Assembly (NCBI GenBank): GCA_026397915.1
Contig: JAPLTX010000014.1
Coordinates: 186,001-250,000, forward strand
Length of the DNA stretch: 64,000 nucleotides
From: Verrucomicrobiota bacterium
Lineage (GTDB): Bacteria > Verrucomicrobiota > Verrucomicrobiia > CAIQCK01
Direction of reading: 5' to 3'
The translations under genes were made by a program, and so were the position numbers. The notes below the pieces were generated by a model. That model did not search any database and was not told where the DNA came from. It saw nothing but the letters and a program-made list of their open reading frames with translations. Shown one piece after another: positions 884 to 42,694 of this stretch (position 1 is its first letter; every line of letters starts with the position of its first letter).

Positions 884-1753
884 TCACGCACTGGCCGCAG
901 CAGATCGGCCACGTGCGCTGCGGCGAAGTTGCCGCCGACAGGTGGCGAGCATCGCGCGCCAGTGGGCGCGCAGGAACGCTGGTTGTTGCAAAGCCTCGCA
1001 GGCGTATTTGCGGCCGGCTTGCGCCAGGTCGAGCTTTGCCTCGATGCGCATCTCGTCGCGGTTGTTCGCCAGCGCCAGCATGCGCATGTCGGGCGCAATG
1101 ATCTTTGAATCGCCCGCGGACCAGAAGCCGCCGCCTTGCGGGCCGACGGTGTTGGCGAAGACGTAGAAGACCTGGTTCTCGAACGCCCGCGCGACGATGC
1201 CATCTTTGCCGCCGCGCTTCGCCTTCGACACGGCGAGCGCGTCCAGCCCGGCGTTCGGATGAAACAGGATTTGCGCGCCCATCATCACCGGCAGGCGAAC
1301 CAGTTCGGGATAGCGCCGCTCGTGGCAGATGATCGCGGTGCACGGGATGCCGTCGAGCCGGAAGAAGGCCAGCACGTTGCCCGGCGCGAAGAACTTCGCG
1401 TCGCCGGGCGTGAGCTGAATCTTGTGGTAGCGGAACACCTCGCGCCCGCGCCGGTCGAAGACGACCAGCGAATTGAGCCATCGGCCACGGGCGCGCGTTG
1501 GCGAGCCGACCAGCACGTTGCAGCGATGCTCGCGCGCCGCGCCGGCGACCGCCCGCAGCCCCGCCTCGACCGCCGCGGGGTCGAGTTCACGGAAGTTGAT
1601 GTTGTAGCCCGTGACGGCGGTTTCCGGAAACAAGATGGCATCGCCGCCCGCGCGCGCGAACTTGTGGATACGGCGCTCAATGAACGCGACGTTCTCCGGG
1701 ATCGTGCGCCGGAACTTCATCTGCACGGCAGCGACTTTCATCTGTGTCTTCAT
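884..1753 (-). CDS. Carbon-nitrogen hydrolase (nitrilase superfamily)
   Basis: MKVAAVQMKF...ILFPETAVTGY...YHKIQLTPGDAKFFAPG...TAIICHERRYPELVR (Glu/Lys/Cys catalytic-type blocks). Confidence 0.85.
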   Translation of the reverse strand: MKTQMKVAAVQMKFRRTIPENVAFIERRIHKFARAGGDAILFPETAVTGYNINFRELDPAAVEAGLRAVAGAAREHRCNVLVGSPTRARGRWLNSLVVFDRRGREVFRYHKIQLTPGDAKFFAPGNVLAFFRLDGIPCTAIICHERRYPELVRLPVMMGAQILFHPNAGLDALAVSKAKRGGKDGIVARAFENQVFYVFANTVGPQGGGFWSAGDSKIIAPDMRMLALANNRDEMRIEAKLDLAQAGRKYACEALQQPAFLRAHWRAMLATCRRQLRRSARGRSAAASA

Positions 1754-4801: not shown

Positions 4802-5821
4802 CTACGCCGTCACCGCCGGTTTCGCTTCCGGCGGACGCACGAGCTTGATGGCAAGATGGACGGCGGCAAGGAAGCTGGCCGGGTTGGCGACGTTGCGGCC
4901 GGCGATGTCGTAGGCGGTGCCGTGGTCCGGCGAGGTGCGGACGAACGGCAGACCGAGGGTGATGTTCACGCCGGTGTCGAAGGCCAGCATTTTCAGCGGG
5001 CCCAATCCCTGGTCGTGATACATCGCCACGACGGCGTCGAACTCGCCCTTGTAGGCTTCGTGGAATATCGTGTCGGCTGGGCGCGGGCCGATGGCCGTGA
5101 TGCCTTTTTTGACGGCTGCCTGCACGGCAGGCTCGATGATTCTGCCTTCCTCGTTGCCGAAGGTGCCGTTGTCACCGGCGTGCGGGTTGAGGCCGGCGAT
5201 GCCGATGCGGCGGCGTTGCAAGCCGAAGGTCGCCAGCGCGATGTGGGTCAGTTCGATGACGTCGAATACTTTCTGTTTCGTTAGCGCGCGGGGAACGTCC
5301 TTCAGCGCGAGGTGAGTCGTGGCGAGCGCGACACGCAACCACGCCGTCGGCGCCAGCGTGCCCGGCATGGGGGGCGGTTTCTGGAACTGGCCGACGAGCA
5401 TCATGGCAATGCGCTTGGCGTGAGAGAGCTTGCCGAGCAGTTCGGTCTGACCAGGCACTTTGATGCCAGCCATGTGAAGGCCGGCTTTGTTGAGCGGCGC
5501 GGTGACGAGCGCGGCAATCTTCTTGGCGCGGGCCAGTTTGACGCCGTGTTCGAGCCATTCGGCGGCGGCTTTGGCGGCGCGCTTGTCGGGTTTGCCCGGC
5601 TCGATGTTGGCCAGGTCGTGTTTGCCGACTTCGACGAGGTCGAAGGTCGGCCGCACGCCGAGGTTGCGGCAAGTGCGATCGAGGACGCCCGCGTCGCCGA
5701 TGATGATGTATTGGAAATTGGGCGGCAGCCGTCCGCTGGAGACGGCCTTGACCACGATTTCCGGTCCGATACCTGCCGCATCACCGAGGGTGATGCCGAT
5801 GACGTCATTCGTTGTAGCCAT
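4802..5821 (-). CDS. pdxA: 4-hydroxythreonine-4-phosphate dehydrogenase
   Basis: ITLGDAAGIGPEIVVKA...GLNPHAGDNGTFGNEE...YHDQGLGPLKMLAFDTGVNITLGLPFVRTSPDHGTAYDIAG. Confidence 0.93.
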   Translation of the reverse strand: MATTNDVIGITLGDAAGIGPEIVVKAVSSGRLPPNFQYIIIGDAGVLDRTCRNLGVRPTFDLVEVGKHDLANIEPGKPDKRAAKAAAEWLEHGVKLARAKKIAALVTAPLNKAGLHMAGIKVPGQTELLGKLSHAKRIAMMLVGQFQKPPPMPGTLAPTAWLRVALATTHLALKDVPRALTKQKVFDVIELTHIALATFGLQRRRIGIAGLNPHAGDNGTFGNEEGRIIEPAVQAAVKKGITAIGPRPADTIFHEAYKGEFDAVVAMYHDQGLGPLKMLAFDTGVNITLGLPFVRTSPDHGTAYDIAGRNVANPASFLAAVHLAIKLVRPPEAKPAVTA

Positions 5822-38361: not shown

Positions 38362-39978
38362 ATGCCGGAAGAACTCGAACTGACCGAGGAAATTCGTCGG
38401 GTAGAAAACATTTTCCACAACACCAACCGGAATTTTCTCGTTCTTGGAAGTGCAGGAACGGGAAAGAGTTTTCTGCTAAAACGTTTGGTCGAGAACTCCC
38501 GCAAAAGACTTCAGGTTTTGTCGTTCACGGGCTTGGCAGCTCTCCAAGTTGGCGGGCGCACCATCCACAGCTTCTTTGGATTCGACCTCGGCCTCCAGAA
38601 GCGGTCGCACTTACTGCTGACGGGGACTGCTGAACAACAAGAGAATCGCCGGCGCGCATTTCAAAGTCTCGAAGCAATTCTGATAGATGAGGTTTCAATG
38701 CTTCGCGCAGACCTGCTTGATGCTGTTGATGGCGTTTTACGGGAACACGGTCCGCGACCGGGCGAACCGTTTGGAGGTGTTCAGGTCGGGCTATTCGGTG
38801 ACGTTTTGCAGTTGCCGCCAATTGTCGACGACGACGTCGACCAAGCGTTTCGCGCACAAGCCAACAACCTGTCAATGCCGGTTTGGGATGAGGGATGGAT
38901 TTCACCTTGGTTCTTCGATTCGTTCGCATATAGGACGGGCGGATTTATGCGGCTGACCTTGAATCATGTTTTTCGCCAGCAAAACGAGGCGGTGGAAGGA
39001 GTGGAGTTCATTCGGTCCCTCCAGCGATTACGAGAAGGCCGGATGCAGCCAGAGGATTATGATCTCATCAATTCGAGAGTCCACAACGACCGGCCCCAAA
39101 AAGCTCTCTCGCTCGTGACCACGAACAAGGAAGCTGATAGGGAGAATGACGCGAGGTTCAATGCGCTGCCAGGCCTTCCTAAAACCTATCGGGCATTTCG
39201 AGCAGAGAACTGGCCGAAACATTGGAAGGGGAAATCATACGAGCCAGTTCCTGAAACGGTTGAAATCAAGAAGGACGCTTGGGTGTTGGTTTGCGCGAAC
39301 ATCGCCGATTCCGGTTTGGTGAACGGCAGCTTGGGCACTGTGCTTCACTGCGATGACGAAGAAGTGGTCCTACAGGTCGGCAACCGAGAAGCTTCTGTCC
39401 CGAGATACGTTTGGAAGTTCCCAATCTGGCGGTGGGACGGCGAAAACAAGAGAATGGTCAAGGACGGCGAGACAATCTACTCGCAAATGCCGCTGAAACT
39501 TGCATGGGCCATGACCATTCACAAGGCACAAGGTCAAACTGTTGACGGCCCGATGTGCGTTGACCTCGGACAGCGGATGTGGTCCGGAGGCCAAGCATAC
39601 GTCGCGTTGTCTCGCGTCAGGCGTCTCGATCAACTCCACCTCCGAAGACCCGTGACAAACGAGGATGTTCTGGTCGAGAGGAAAGCGCGGCAGTTTCTCT
39701 GCGAGGGAGACTCGGCCACTTCTTTTGACGAAACTCGTGCACTAGCCGCCACGGTGTATCGAAAAACCAAGAAAATGAAGGACAAGACCGTCGAGGAGAG
39801 AGAGCGTGCAGAACACGCTCAAAAACGCATTGAGACGCTCTTGACCGATGCCGCTGCCACACTTCAAGAATGGAAGCAAGTGGTGACAAGAATCGCCGCC
39901 TCTGAAAAGAAGATTCTGTCAGCATTGGAGCAAGCGAAGAAAGCTGGTTGGTTGGAACGTTTGCTTGGCAGATTCTGA
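38362..39978 (+). CDS. Pif1/RecD-like AAA DNA helicase
   Basis: Walker A FLVLGSAGTGKSFLLKRL; Walker B LIDEVSMLRADLLDAVDGVLR; C-terminal AWAMTIHKAQGQTVDGPMCVDLG...AYVALSRVRRLDQLHL; strong SD aaaggag upstream. Confidence 0.88.
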   Translation: MPEELELTEEIRRVENIFHNTNRNFLVLGSAGTGKSFLLKRLVENSRKRLQVLSFTGLAALQVGGRTIHSFFGFDLGLQKRSHLLLTGTAEQQENRRRAFQSLEAILIDEVSMLRADLLDAVDGVLREHGPRPGEPFGGVQVGLFGDVLQLPPIVDDDVDQAFRAQANNLSMPVWDEGWISPWFFDSFAYRTGGFMRLTLNHVFRQQNEAVEGVEFIRSLQRLREGRMQPEDYDLINSRVHNDRPQKALSLVTTNKEADRENDARFNALPGLPKTYRAFRAENWPKHWKGKSYEPVPETVEIKKDAWVLVCANIADSGLVNGSLGTVLHCDDEEVVLQVGNREASVPRYVWKFPIWRWDGENKRMVKDGETIYSQMPLKLAWAMTIHKAQGQTVDGPMCVDLGQRMWSGGQAYVALSRVRRLDQLHLRRPVTNEDVLVERKARQFLCEGDSATSFDETRALAATVYRKTKKMKDKTVEERERAEHAQKRIETLLTDAAATLQEWKQVVTRIAASEKKILSALEQAKKAGWLERLLGRF

Positions 39979-40096: not shown

Positions 40097-40152
40097 GCAA
40101 CCGGGCACACGCACTAGAATCGCCAACTCTTGTAGTGCATGTGCCCGGTTGC
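40097..40152. repeat. Long imperfect inverted repeat / hairpin (20-bp arms, 16-nt loop)
   Basis: GCAACCGGGCACACGCACTA (40097-40116) and TAGTGCATGTGCCCGGTTGC (40133-40152), complementary at 19 of 20 positions. Confidence 0.9.
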
Positions 40153-40213
40153 TCTCTCAGCATTGTATGACTGGCAGACGGGAAGATGTTACGAGCCTTT
40201 AGGAGGATTTTTT

Positions 40214-40528
40214 CTATGTTTTCCACACGTTTTCGCATGTTTCCGACGTGGCGCGGCTGTTTTGGAGCCGTCGCGGGGATATGTGCCGCCGTCTGGTGGG
40301 GCTGTAACTCCGCCGGGGGGTTCTTTGCCGCCGCTGTGGAGATATGTTTCGCCGCTTGAGCATTCTTTACCGCCGCTTGGTAGTTCCTTACAGCCGCTGT
40401 GGCGTTATTTCAATCCGCTGGAAGGTTCCTTGCCTCCGCTGTGTGGTTCTTTATCGCCGCTGCGGGATTATTCCGCACCGCTGCGGCATTCCTCGCGGAC
40501 GCTGGAAGGTTCCGTCCCGCCGCCTTGC
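40214..40528. repeat. Degenerate tandem array with strict 21-bp period (12 clear units from 40277; up to 15 including weaker 5' units)
   Basis: Units e.g. ggttctttgccgccgctgtgg / agatatgtttcgccgcttgag / cattctttaccgccgcttggt / agttccttacagccgctgtgg / cgttatttcaatccgctggaa / ggttccttgcctccgctgtgt / ggttctttatcgccgctgcgg; CCGCTK at unit positions 13-18 in 8 consecutive units, no phase slip. Confidence 0.9.
40216..40359 (+). CDS. Possible small ORF (47 aa) reading into the 21-bp array
   Basis: aggagg at 40201-40206, 9-nt spacing to ATG; MFSTRFRMFPTWRGCFGAVAGICAAVWWGCNSAGGFFAAAVEICFAA*. Confidence 0.3.
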   Translation: MFSTRFRMFPTWRGCFGAVAGICAAVWWGCNSAGGFFAAAVEICFAA

Positions 40529-40612
40529 CGGGCTGCGGGCGGCGGGTGGGAAAAACGCTTGCCTTGTCGCGAGGGGCGGAGTTACAAGGGCGCGAACCAC
40601 TCCTTACATATT

Positions 40613-40933
40613 ATGAGCACGACGAACAGTTCCACGGGAAAGCCGCTGTTGTCGCTGGCGCAGGTCAGCAAGTTGTTGAGCGATGAGACGCGGTGGCGGT
40701 TGTTGCGGGAGATGAGCAAGGGAGAGATGCTGCCGACCGCCGATCTGGCCAAGCGCGCGGGGACGACTCCCGACTCGGCATACAAGCACCTGATCGTCTT
40801 GAACCGGATGGGTGTCGCGGTGCAGCGCTATCGCGGGTTCTTCGCGATGACGCCCGCGTTCCTGCCGCCCGCCGGCTCGACGACGCTGGACCTCGGCCAC
40901 TGCGTGGTCAAACTCGACACGCCGCTGGAGTAG
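40613..40933 (+). CDS. Small ArsR-like winged-HTH transcriptional regulator
   Basis: MSTTNSSTGKPLLSLAQVSKLLSDETRWRLLREMSKGEMLPTADLAKRAGTTPDSAYKHLIVLNRMGVAVQRYRGFFAMTPAFLP (ArsR-type wHTH pattern). Confidence 0.75.
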   Translation: MSTTNSSTGKPLLSLAQVSKLLSDETRWRLLREMSKGEMLPTADLAKRAGTTPDSAYKHLIVLNRMGVAVQRYRGFFAMTPAFLPPAGSTTLDLGHCVVKLDTPLE

Positions 40934-40963: not shown

Positions 40964-42694
40964 TCACTTGTTCTTTCCGCCGGTGATGAACTCATCGCGG
41001 CTGAGGACGCCGTCCTTGTTCTTGTCGAACTGGATGAAACGCTTCGGCGCTTCGTCGGGATCGGGCTGGCCGGTGAGGAACTCCTCGCGCGTGAGCTTGC
41101 CGTCGCCGTCCTTGTCGCGCTTGTCGAACATCGCGCCCCGGTCTTGCTTTGGCTTTTTCGATGCGGGCTTGGCGCCGGCTTTCTTGGCGCTGCCAATCTG
41201 CGGCTTCGCTTCCGGCTGCTTAGCGAGGATGGCGCGGAGCTGCGCGACGACCTCCGGCTTGTCGGCGGCGAGGTTTTTCGTTTCGTCGGGGTCGGCTTCG
41301 TAATCGTAAAGCTCCAGCACGGCGGTGTCGGCCGGTTCGCCGATCTTCTTCCACTCGACGAGCCGGTAGCGCGCGGTGCGGACGGCGCGGCCCATGCCCT
41401 GGCTGCGCGGATAGACGTGGAGGACGGCTTCCTTCGTCTTGGCGGCGGGATTTTTCAACGCGGCGGCGAAACTCGCGCCGTCGAGGCCTTGCGGCGCGGG
41501 CAGGCCGGCGAGTTCGCAGAGCGTCGGGTAGATGTCCACCGACTCGGCGAGTGCACCGGTCTTCGCGCCGGCCCTGGCAACACCGGGCGCGACGACGATG
41601 AGCGGGATGCGCGCGGCCTGTTCGTAGTTGGTGTGCTTGCACCACATGCCGTGGTCGCCGAGATGCCAGCCGTGGTCGCCCCAGAGGACGATGAGGGTGT
41701 TCTTCGCGAGGCCGTTGCGGTCGAGCGCGTCGAGCACGCGGCCAAGCTGCGCGTCCATGTAGCTCGTCGCGGCGTGGTAGCCGTGGATGAGCAGGCGCGT
41801 CTTCGCGTCGTCGGGCGGGCCGACCTCCGGGATGTCGCTGTATTGGCGCAGCTCGCCCCACGTCGTCGGCGCGAACTCCGGCGCGCCGATGGGCGGCACG
41901 CGCAGCTTCGGCAACGGAAACGCCGCGCGGTCGTAGAGGTCCCAGTATTTCTTCGGCGCGATGAACGGCAGGTGCGGCTTGAGGAAGCCGACGGCGATGA
42001 ACCACGGCTCGCCGGGTTTGGCTTTGGCGGCGTCGAGACGGCGGACGGCCTCGTCGGCGATCATGCCGTCGCCGTAGGTGGTGTCCGGCACGTCAGCGCA
42101 TTCGGTCGCCGCGCCGCGCGGCAGCTTCCACGGGTCCACCTTCGCGTTGGAGAAGCGCGCTTCCTCGCGGGTCATCTCCTTGGGGCGGTTCTCCTTGAGC
42201 ACATAGCCGCCGCCCTGGACGCCCATCGGCCGCCAATGCTCGACGCTCCACGACGCGGGGTCCTCGGTGTTGCCGTGGCCGACGTGGAATATCTTCCCCA
42301 TCGCCTCGGTGCGATAGCCGTGCTGCTTGAAATACTGCGCCAGTGTCACGGCGTCGGGCACGCTCTTGCGGAAGTTGGTGGCGAGGTCGTAGATGCCGAG
42401 TGTCTGCGACCGCAGGCCGGTCATGAGCGCGTTGCGCGACGGCGAGCAGACGGCTTGGTTGCAGAACGCGCGCTCGAACAGCACCCCGCGCGTCGCGAGC
42501 CGGTCAATGTTCGGCGACTTCACGATCGGCGTGCCGTAACAACCGAGCAGCGGCTTGAGGTCGTCCACGCAGATGAGCAGGACGTTTGGATTTTGGATTT
42601 TGGATTCTGGATTTTGGATTGGTGCTTCAGCCGCGTGCAACGTGGCCGGAACAGTTAGCAACAAAGCAGTGAAGATGGTGAGGATATGTCTCAT
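40964..42694 (-). CDS. Sulfatase, iduronate-2-sulfatase-like, with C-terminal EF-hand pair
   Basis: MRHILTIFTALLLTVPATLHAAEAPIQNPESKIQNPNVLLICVDDLKPLLGCYG; motif VCSPSRNALMTGLRSQTLGIYDL; DKDGDGKLTREEF and DKNKDGVLSRDEF. Confidence 0.93.
   Translation of the reverse strand: MRHILTIFTALLLTVPATLHAAEAPIQNPESKIQNPNVLLICVDDLKPLLGCYGTPIVKSPNIDRLATRGVLFERAFCNQAVCSPSRNALMTGLRSQTLGIYDLATNFRKSVPDAVTLAQYFKQHGYRTEAMGKIFHVGHGNTEDPASWSVEHWRPMGVQGGGYVLKENRPKEMTREEARFSNAKVDPWKLPRGAATECADVPDTTYGDGMIADEAVRRLDAAKAKPGEPWFIAVGFLKPHLPFIAPKKYWDLYDRAAFPLPKLRVPPIGAPEFAPTTWGELRQYSDIPEVGPPDDAKTRLLIHGYHAATSYMDAQLGRVLDALDRNGLAKNTLIVLWGDHGWHLGDHGMWCKHTNYEQAARIPLIVVAPGVARAGAKTGALAESVDIYPTLCELAGLPAPQGLDGASFAAALKNPAAKTKEAVLHVYPRSQGMGRAVRTARYRLVEWKKIGEPADTAVLELYDYEADPDETKNLAADKPEVVAQLRAILAKQPEAKPQIGSAKKAGAKPASKKPKQDRGAMFDKRDKDGDGKLTREEFLTGQPDPDEAPKRFIQFDKNKDGVLSRDEFITGGKNK
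42585..42626. repeat. Heptamer tandem repeat (ATTTTGG)n inside sulfatase coding sequence
   Basis: gtttgg attttgg attttgg attctgg attttgg attgg. Confidence 0.85.

Follow-up and report, generated by a model that had tools for sequence, protein, structure and literature searches.

A helix-phased 21-bp repeat array beside a small winged-helix gene belongs to a scattered gene module of Verrucomicrobia

The 21-bp repeat array described here lies in a 64-kb stretch of verrucomicrobial DNA (hereafter the window) and makes up half of a small gene module scattered through Verrucomicrobia, in which about ten to seventeen unit copies precede the gene of a small DNA-binding protein. We consider it reasonably probable that this protein covers the array as its operator and governs the promoter of its own gene, the whole forming a self-contained cassette. 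Among the roles put forward in a preliminary description of the array, the one that fits best is a phased protein-binding array, with the HTH gene next to it as the predicted source of the binding protein.

The array is the strongest periodic signal of the window. Its self-identity at lags 21 and 63 is 0.56-0.59 across about 250-300 bp, versus a best value of 0.44 elsewhere (lags 5-79), and TRF independently reports it with periods of 21 and 42 (Table 1). Listing the units bears out that twelve consecutive 21-mers run without a phase slip, that units 3-10 have CCGCTK at positions 13-18, and that CCG fills positions 13-15 in 11 of the 12 units. Likewise, the listing and the match scores to the array consensus confirm that weaker units continue in the same register on the 5' side. 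At that end the sequence TTTTCCACA raised the idea of a DnaA box and an origin, which we set aside; the supposed box falls within a weak unit. On its 3' side the array adjoins a promoter-like site, starting thirty bases past the last unit, and then a gene encoding a 106-aa winged-helix protein. Upstream of the array lies a PIF1-like helicase gene (38362-39978). Between the two sits a 23-bp inverted repeat (40097-40152; 91% complementary, 10-nt loop), which may be a terminator or mark the edge of the module.

Table 1. Features of the module in the window (positions count from the first base of the window).
Feature	Position	Strand	Description	Basis
Three weaker 5' units	40214..40276	+	same register, xxxTGTTTYC-like	unit listing; in-register match scores to array consensus
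21-bp unit array, twelve units	40277..40528	+	consensus about GGTTCYTTRCCGCCGCTGKGG	unit listing; TRF; sister arrays upstream of homologous genes
Promoter-like site	40559..40587	+	TTGCCT, 17-bp spacer, TTACAA; directly 3' of array	placed by eye
106-aa ArsR-like winged-helix gene	40613..40933	+	signature RW ... PGxxxLDFGHCxLRLD	profile matches; AlphaFold model; fold matches

By sequence and by its modelled fold, the 106-aa protein appears ArsR-like. It matches the NCBIfam ArsR/SmtB profile HTH_metalloreg at E 7e-8 (32 bits, cut-off 55) and Pfam HTH_20 at E 1.5e-4, under the curated cut-off, and the best fold matches of its AlphaFold model (pLDDT 87.5) are CadC and CmtR, at E about 1e-3. ArsR/SmtB repressors such as CadC, CmtR and NmtR are autoregulated, and their operators normally comprise one or two inverted repeats, not ten or more units. 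The protein of the module may share their fold and sequence family but differs in an extra conserved C-terminal segment, LDFGHCxLRLD, and in scoring below the family cut-offs. Inspection of an alignment of 36 family members revealed no metal sensor site (e.g. ELCVCDL). Although purifying selection acts on the HTH gene, it evolves faster than most of its neighbours: in three orthologous pairs its dN/dS was 0.36, 0.15 and 0.28, whereas flanking genes in the same comparison gave mostly 0.05-0.19, with one at 0.46.

The nearest homologs of the HTH gene, found in the same genus and in one case in the same class, have 21-bp arrays beside them. We surveyed homologs using one genome per species and obtained 35 verrucomicrobial loci whose sequence was long enough. 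For 33 of these, the signal at lag 21 or 42 outranks every other period in the 700 bp preceding the gene, usually standing far above shuffled sequence; the two array-less loci (L100 and L111) are 5'-truncated gene remnants. Control windows taken away from the module in the same loci pass the array threshold in 5 of 680 cases, and weak non-verrucomicrobial matches to the HTH gene show no upstream array. Distant paralogs also carry upstream arrays (L128, L139, L125, L127, L148, L149, L155, 42 bp; L151, 44 bp), of which the 42-bp array of L128 is nearly perfect and at least that of L155 resembles alternating 21-bp pairs. The module is patchy, being present in 3 of 390 genomes of the phylum at E 1e-20, and some genomes hold several copies. 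The module keeps no constant company: the 10-kb loci contain no recurrent neighbour or operon partner gene family, beyond a few shared contexts.

What the sister loci share is spacing, not sequence. The preliminary description had staked its reading on relatives keeping the 21-bp phase or the CCGCTK framework; the phase is kept, and the framework is confined to the window locus and those most closely related to it. For proteins less than about 70% identical, the unit profiles of different loci are no more alike than in a column-shuffled null, and above this level they are not always more alike. Array GC ranges from 0.21 to 0.60 across loci. In one pair of loci (L094 and L106) the flanks are 88% identical and the array has been largely replaced, with 21 bp kept in both. 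The window array and that of L078 differ by two indels of 21 bp each. Within the unit, information content oscillates with a main harmonic of 10.5 bp, which accounts for 21.5% of the variance (z 6.6, 28 non-redundant loci) and exceeds the null median in 21 of the 28 loci (sign test, p 0.006); the same 28 loci show no 3-bp excess of conservation (z -0.2). Together, the 21/42-bp period, the 10.5-bp oscillation and the 21-bp indels support the earlier proposal of selection on spacing and on one DNA face.

Rotation-aligned unit profiles of all loci reveal a weakly shared pattern, roughly GA-N8-TC. Averaged over the family, the motif has dyad symmetry (0.72 versus a null of 0.36 +/- 0.08; split halves agree only modestly), and individual loci and units are not significantly palindromic (mean dyad z 0.2). 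The 10.5-bp phasing and the dyad of the average fit a dimer that touches each unit twice, both times from the same side of the double helix. As for phased A/T curvature, the A/T profile has no 10.5-bp harmonic (z 0.6); the WW-dinucleotide profile shows a broad low-harmonic excess that includes 10.5 bp (z 4.3) and is strongest at 21 bp, which leaves some room for DNA curvature. Since conservation oscillates at 10.5 bp, and neither a 3-bp signal, nor an RNA fold signal, nor a consistently open frame was found, the array most likely acts as double-stranded DNA that is recognised from one face. Two further periodicities were observed within the units of the 28 non-redundant loci, at 3.5 bp in the G/T profile (z 5.5) and at 21 bp in the purine profile (z 5.3).

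In the explanation that we favour, the array would be the operator region of the winged-helix gene 3' of it. The protein, probably a dimer, would bind each 21-bp unit, that is two helical turns, through two contacts about 10.5 bp apart. Ten or more copies aligned on one DNA face could thus assemble a cooperative nucleoprotein stretch upstream of the gene's own promoter, and this stretch would control expression of the gene, most likely by repression. The promoter 3' of the array is likely real. Just downstream of the array, about 22 sister loci carry TTGNNN and, after it, a 17-bp spacer; we grade the promoter as likely rather than proven because these sites were chosen by eye, their second hexamer varies and the site in the window falls below the strict threshold of a consensus scan. 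The helical phase of the 10.5-bp signal relative to the -35 site is not fixed overall (p 0.54).

The targets of the protein may be confined to the module. In the genome of the window, sites resembling the unit are no commoner outside the array than in the control, and in the 6.6-Mb genome of L080 the unit of that locus occurs in its own array and at two 3-mismatch sites beside it, with none for the control. A regulator whose sole target is its own promoter offers no obvious benefit to the host, which counts against the operator-array explanation. Site sequence would be expected to drift together with the protein of each module; L085 and L089 have common units despite different recognition helices. 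Dozens of protein-site pairs, some of them at orthologous loci of related genomes, occur naturally in these modules, with spacing fixed and sequence free to diverge, which makes joint change of a DNA-binding protein and its sites directly testable.

The module, as array, promoter and gene with no conserved partner gene, would move between chromosomal sites. We regard it as probably mobile and cassette-like because it is patchy, sometimes multicopy and without common neighbours, and because some copies are flanked by duplicated gene ends. Direct repeats of 52-106 bp flank four modules (L094, L096, L105 and L109). In L094 and L096 the repeats are 65 bp long and copy the 3' end of the gene before the module, and in L105 they are about 100 bp long and copy a purQ-like 3' end, which suggests that small cassettes insert at gene 3' ends. 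The module of L079 lies within about 1.9 kb that are missing from the corresponding place in the window.

Several other duplications were seen around the modules. The next stretch of L105 bounded by copies of the purQ-like end carries what look like the genes of a HigBA toxin-antitoxin pair. Copies of a thiC-like 3' end surround cassettes in L103 (+1582..1708 and +4890..5283), L100 (-1884..-1758) and L110 (-936..-542), repeating the arrangement at a different gene. In L097 a downstream duplicate of the C-terminal half of the HTH gene (+1049..1229) encloses an ORF that is unrelated, as though the module had become a target in its turn.

The main rival of the operator-array explanation is a centromere-like, DNA-organising role, in which the HTH protein would form a filament on the array that mainly positions, pairs or stabilises the carrier DNA, in the manner of plasmid centromere-binding proteins, autoregulation being secondary. 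We regard it as unlikely, although the layout is that of two known systems. In TubR-tubC, binding of TubR represses the operon and forms filaments, the centromere sequence differs between members, and a repeat array lies directly upstream of the gene of a small DNA-binding protein, as here (PMC7762940). Likewise, StbA of plasmid R388 acts through direct-repeat arrays (stbDRs) at its own promoter and confers stability without a motor, again pairing a DNA-binding protein with direct repeats around a promoter (PMC3098194). Centromere sequences are likewise non-conserved tandem repeats, and such a role would suit modules that each have a unit of their own and of which one genome can contain several.

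Against it, no motor or partition gene recurs nearby, the modules lie on chromosomal contigs, and no relatives of them were found among 72,556 plasmids or in viral contigs. Compared with the features of plasmid partition systems, TubRZ or other, the module has the array upstream of a DNA-binding gene and lacks the motor gene and the plasmid or phage carriage. TubR-tubC differs in its TubZ motor and its plasmids, whereas the present modules are motor-free and chromosomal, number several per genome and use 21/42-bp units; TubR structures are absent among the PDB sequence matches of the 106-aa protein. The stbDRs differ in having 9-bp repeats with an 11-bp period, in being plasmid-borne together with stbB/stbC and in recurring as a motif in other plasmid promoters. 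Our best reading of these comparisons is that the module may work like TubR-tubC or StbA-stbDRs and, since a motor gene and a plasmid location were looked for and not found, would be a member of neither.

Plasmid iterons are tandem direct repeats about two turns apart that are bound by winged-helix Rep initiators. The module differs from them in being chromosomal, with a single small wHTH protein and no replication initiator. In the open-licence full-text papers searched, we found no description of such a module; as far as these texts go, it would be the first partner-less array module of such kind on chromosomes. The module might also represent an undescribed class of mobile, self-contained chromosomal element, consisting solely of a winged-helix protein and a private helix-phased array, present in several mutually distinct copies per genome, behaving in a centromere- or incompatibility-like manner and with site and protein co-diverging rapidly, an idea that we consider rather doubtful.

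It is improbable that the array is a selfish or decaying repeat, a functionless by-product that arose as slippage and unequal exchange took place next to a mobile regulator gene. The patchy distribution, the multiple copies per genome, the duplicated gene ends around some of them and the free replacement of unit sequence would all be expected of such a by-product. However, the 21 (or 42) period is kept over unrelated units across the whole GC range, conservation is phased at 10.5 bp, the copies without an array are truncated and purifying selection acts on the HTH gene.

The preliminary description also listed a guide-like array and a template for repeat RNA or a heptad-repeat peptide, and these roles found no support. 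Transcription through the repeats, giving an RNA element or guide array, is very improbable: the gene upstream of the module is usually co-directional, so that read-through is possible, but folding of the two strands does not depart from shuffled sequence (z -0.18 and +0.33), no Rfam family matches and the constraint lies at 10.5 bp rather than being structural. A coding heptad-repeat peptide, or a repeat-encoded stretch extending the N terminus of the HTH protein (seven codons per 21-bp unit), is hardly credible, for although the frame 40139-40933 is open through the window array into the HTH gene, it meets in-frame stops in the closest relative (L078/L033), many sister arrays have stops in all six frames and conservation lacks a period-3 signal (z -0.2), which refutes the peptide as a family property and would at most allow one private to the window.

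Downstream of the module in the window runs a convergent ORF, named from its sequence, which we take to be a sulfatase-like gene. The heptamer TTTGGAT occurs in five copies at the start of a sulfatase-like gene (42585-42620).
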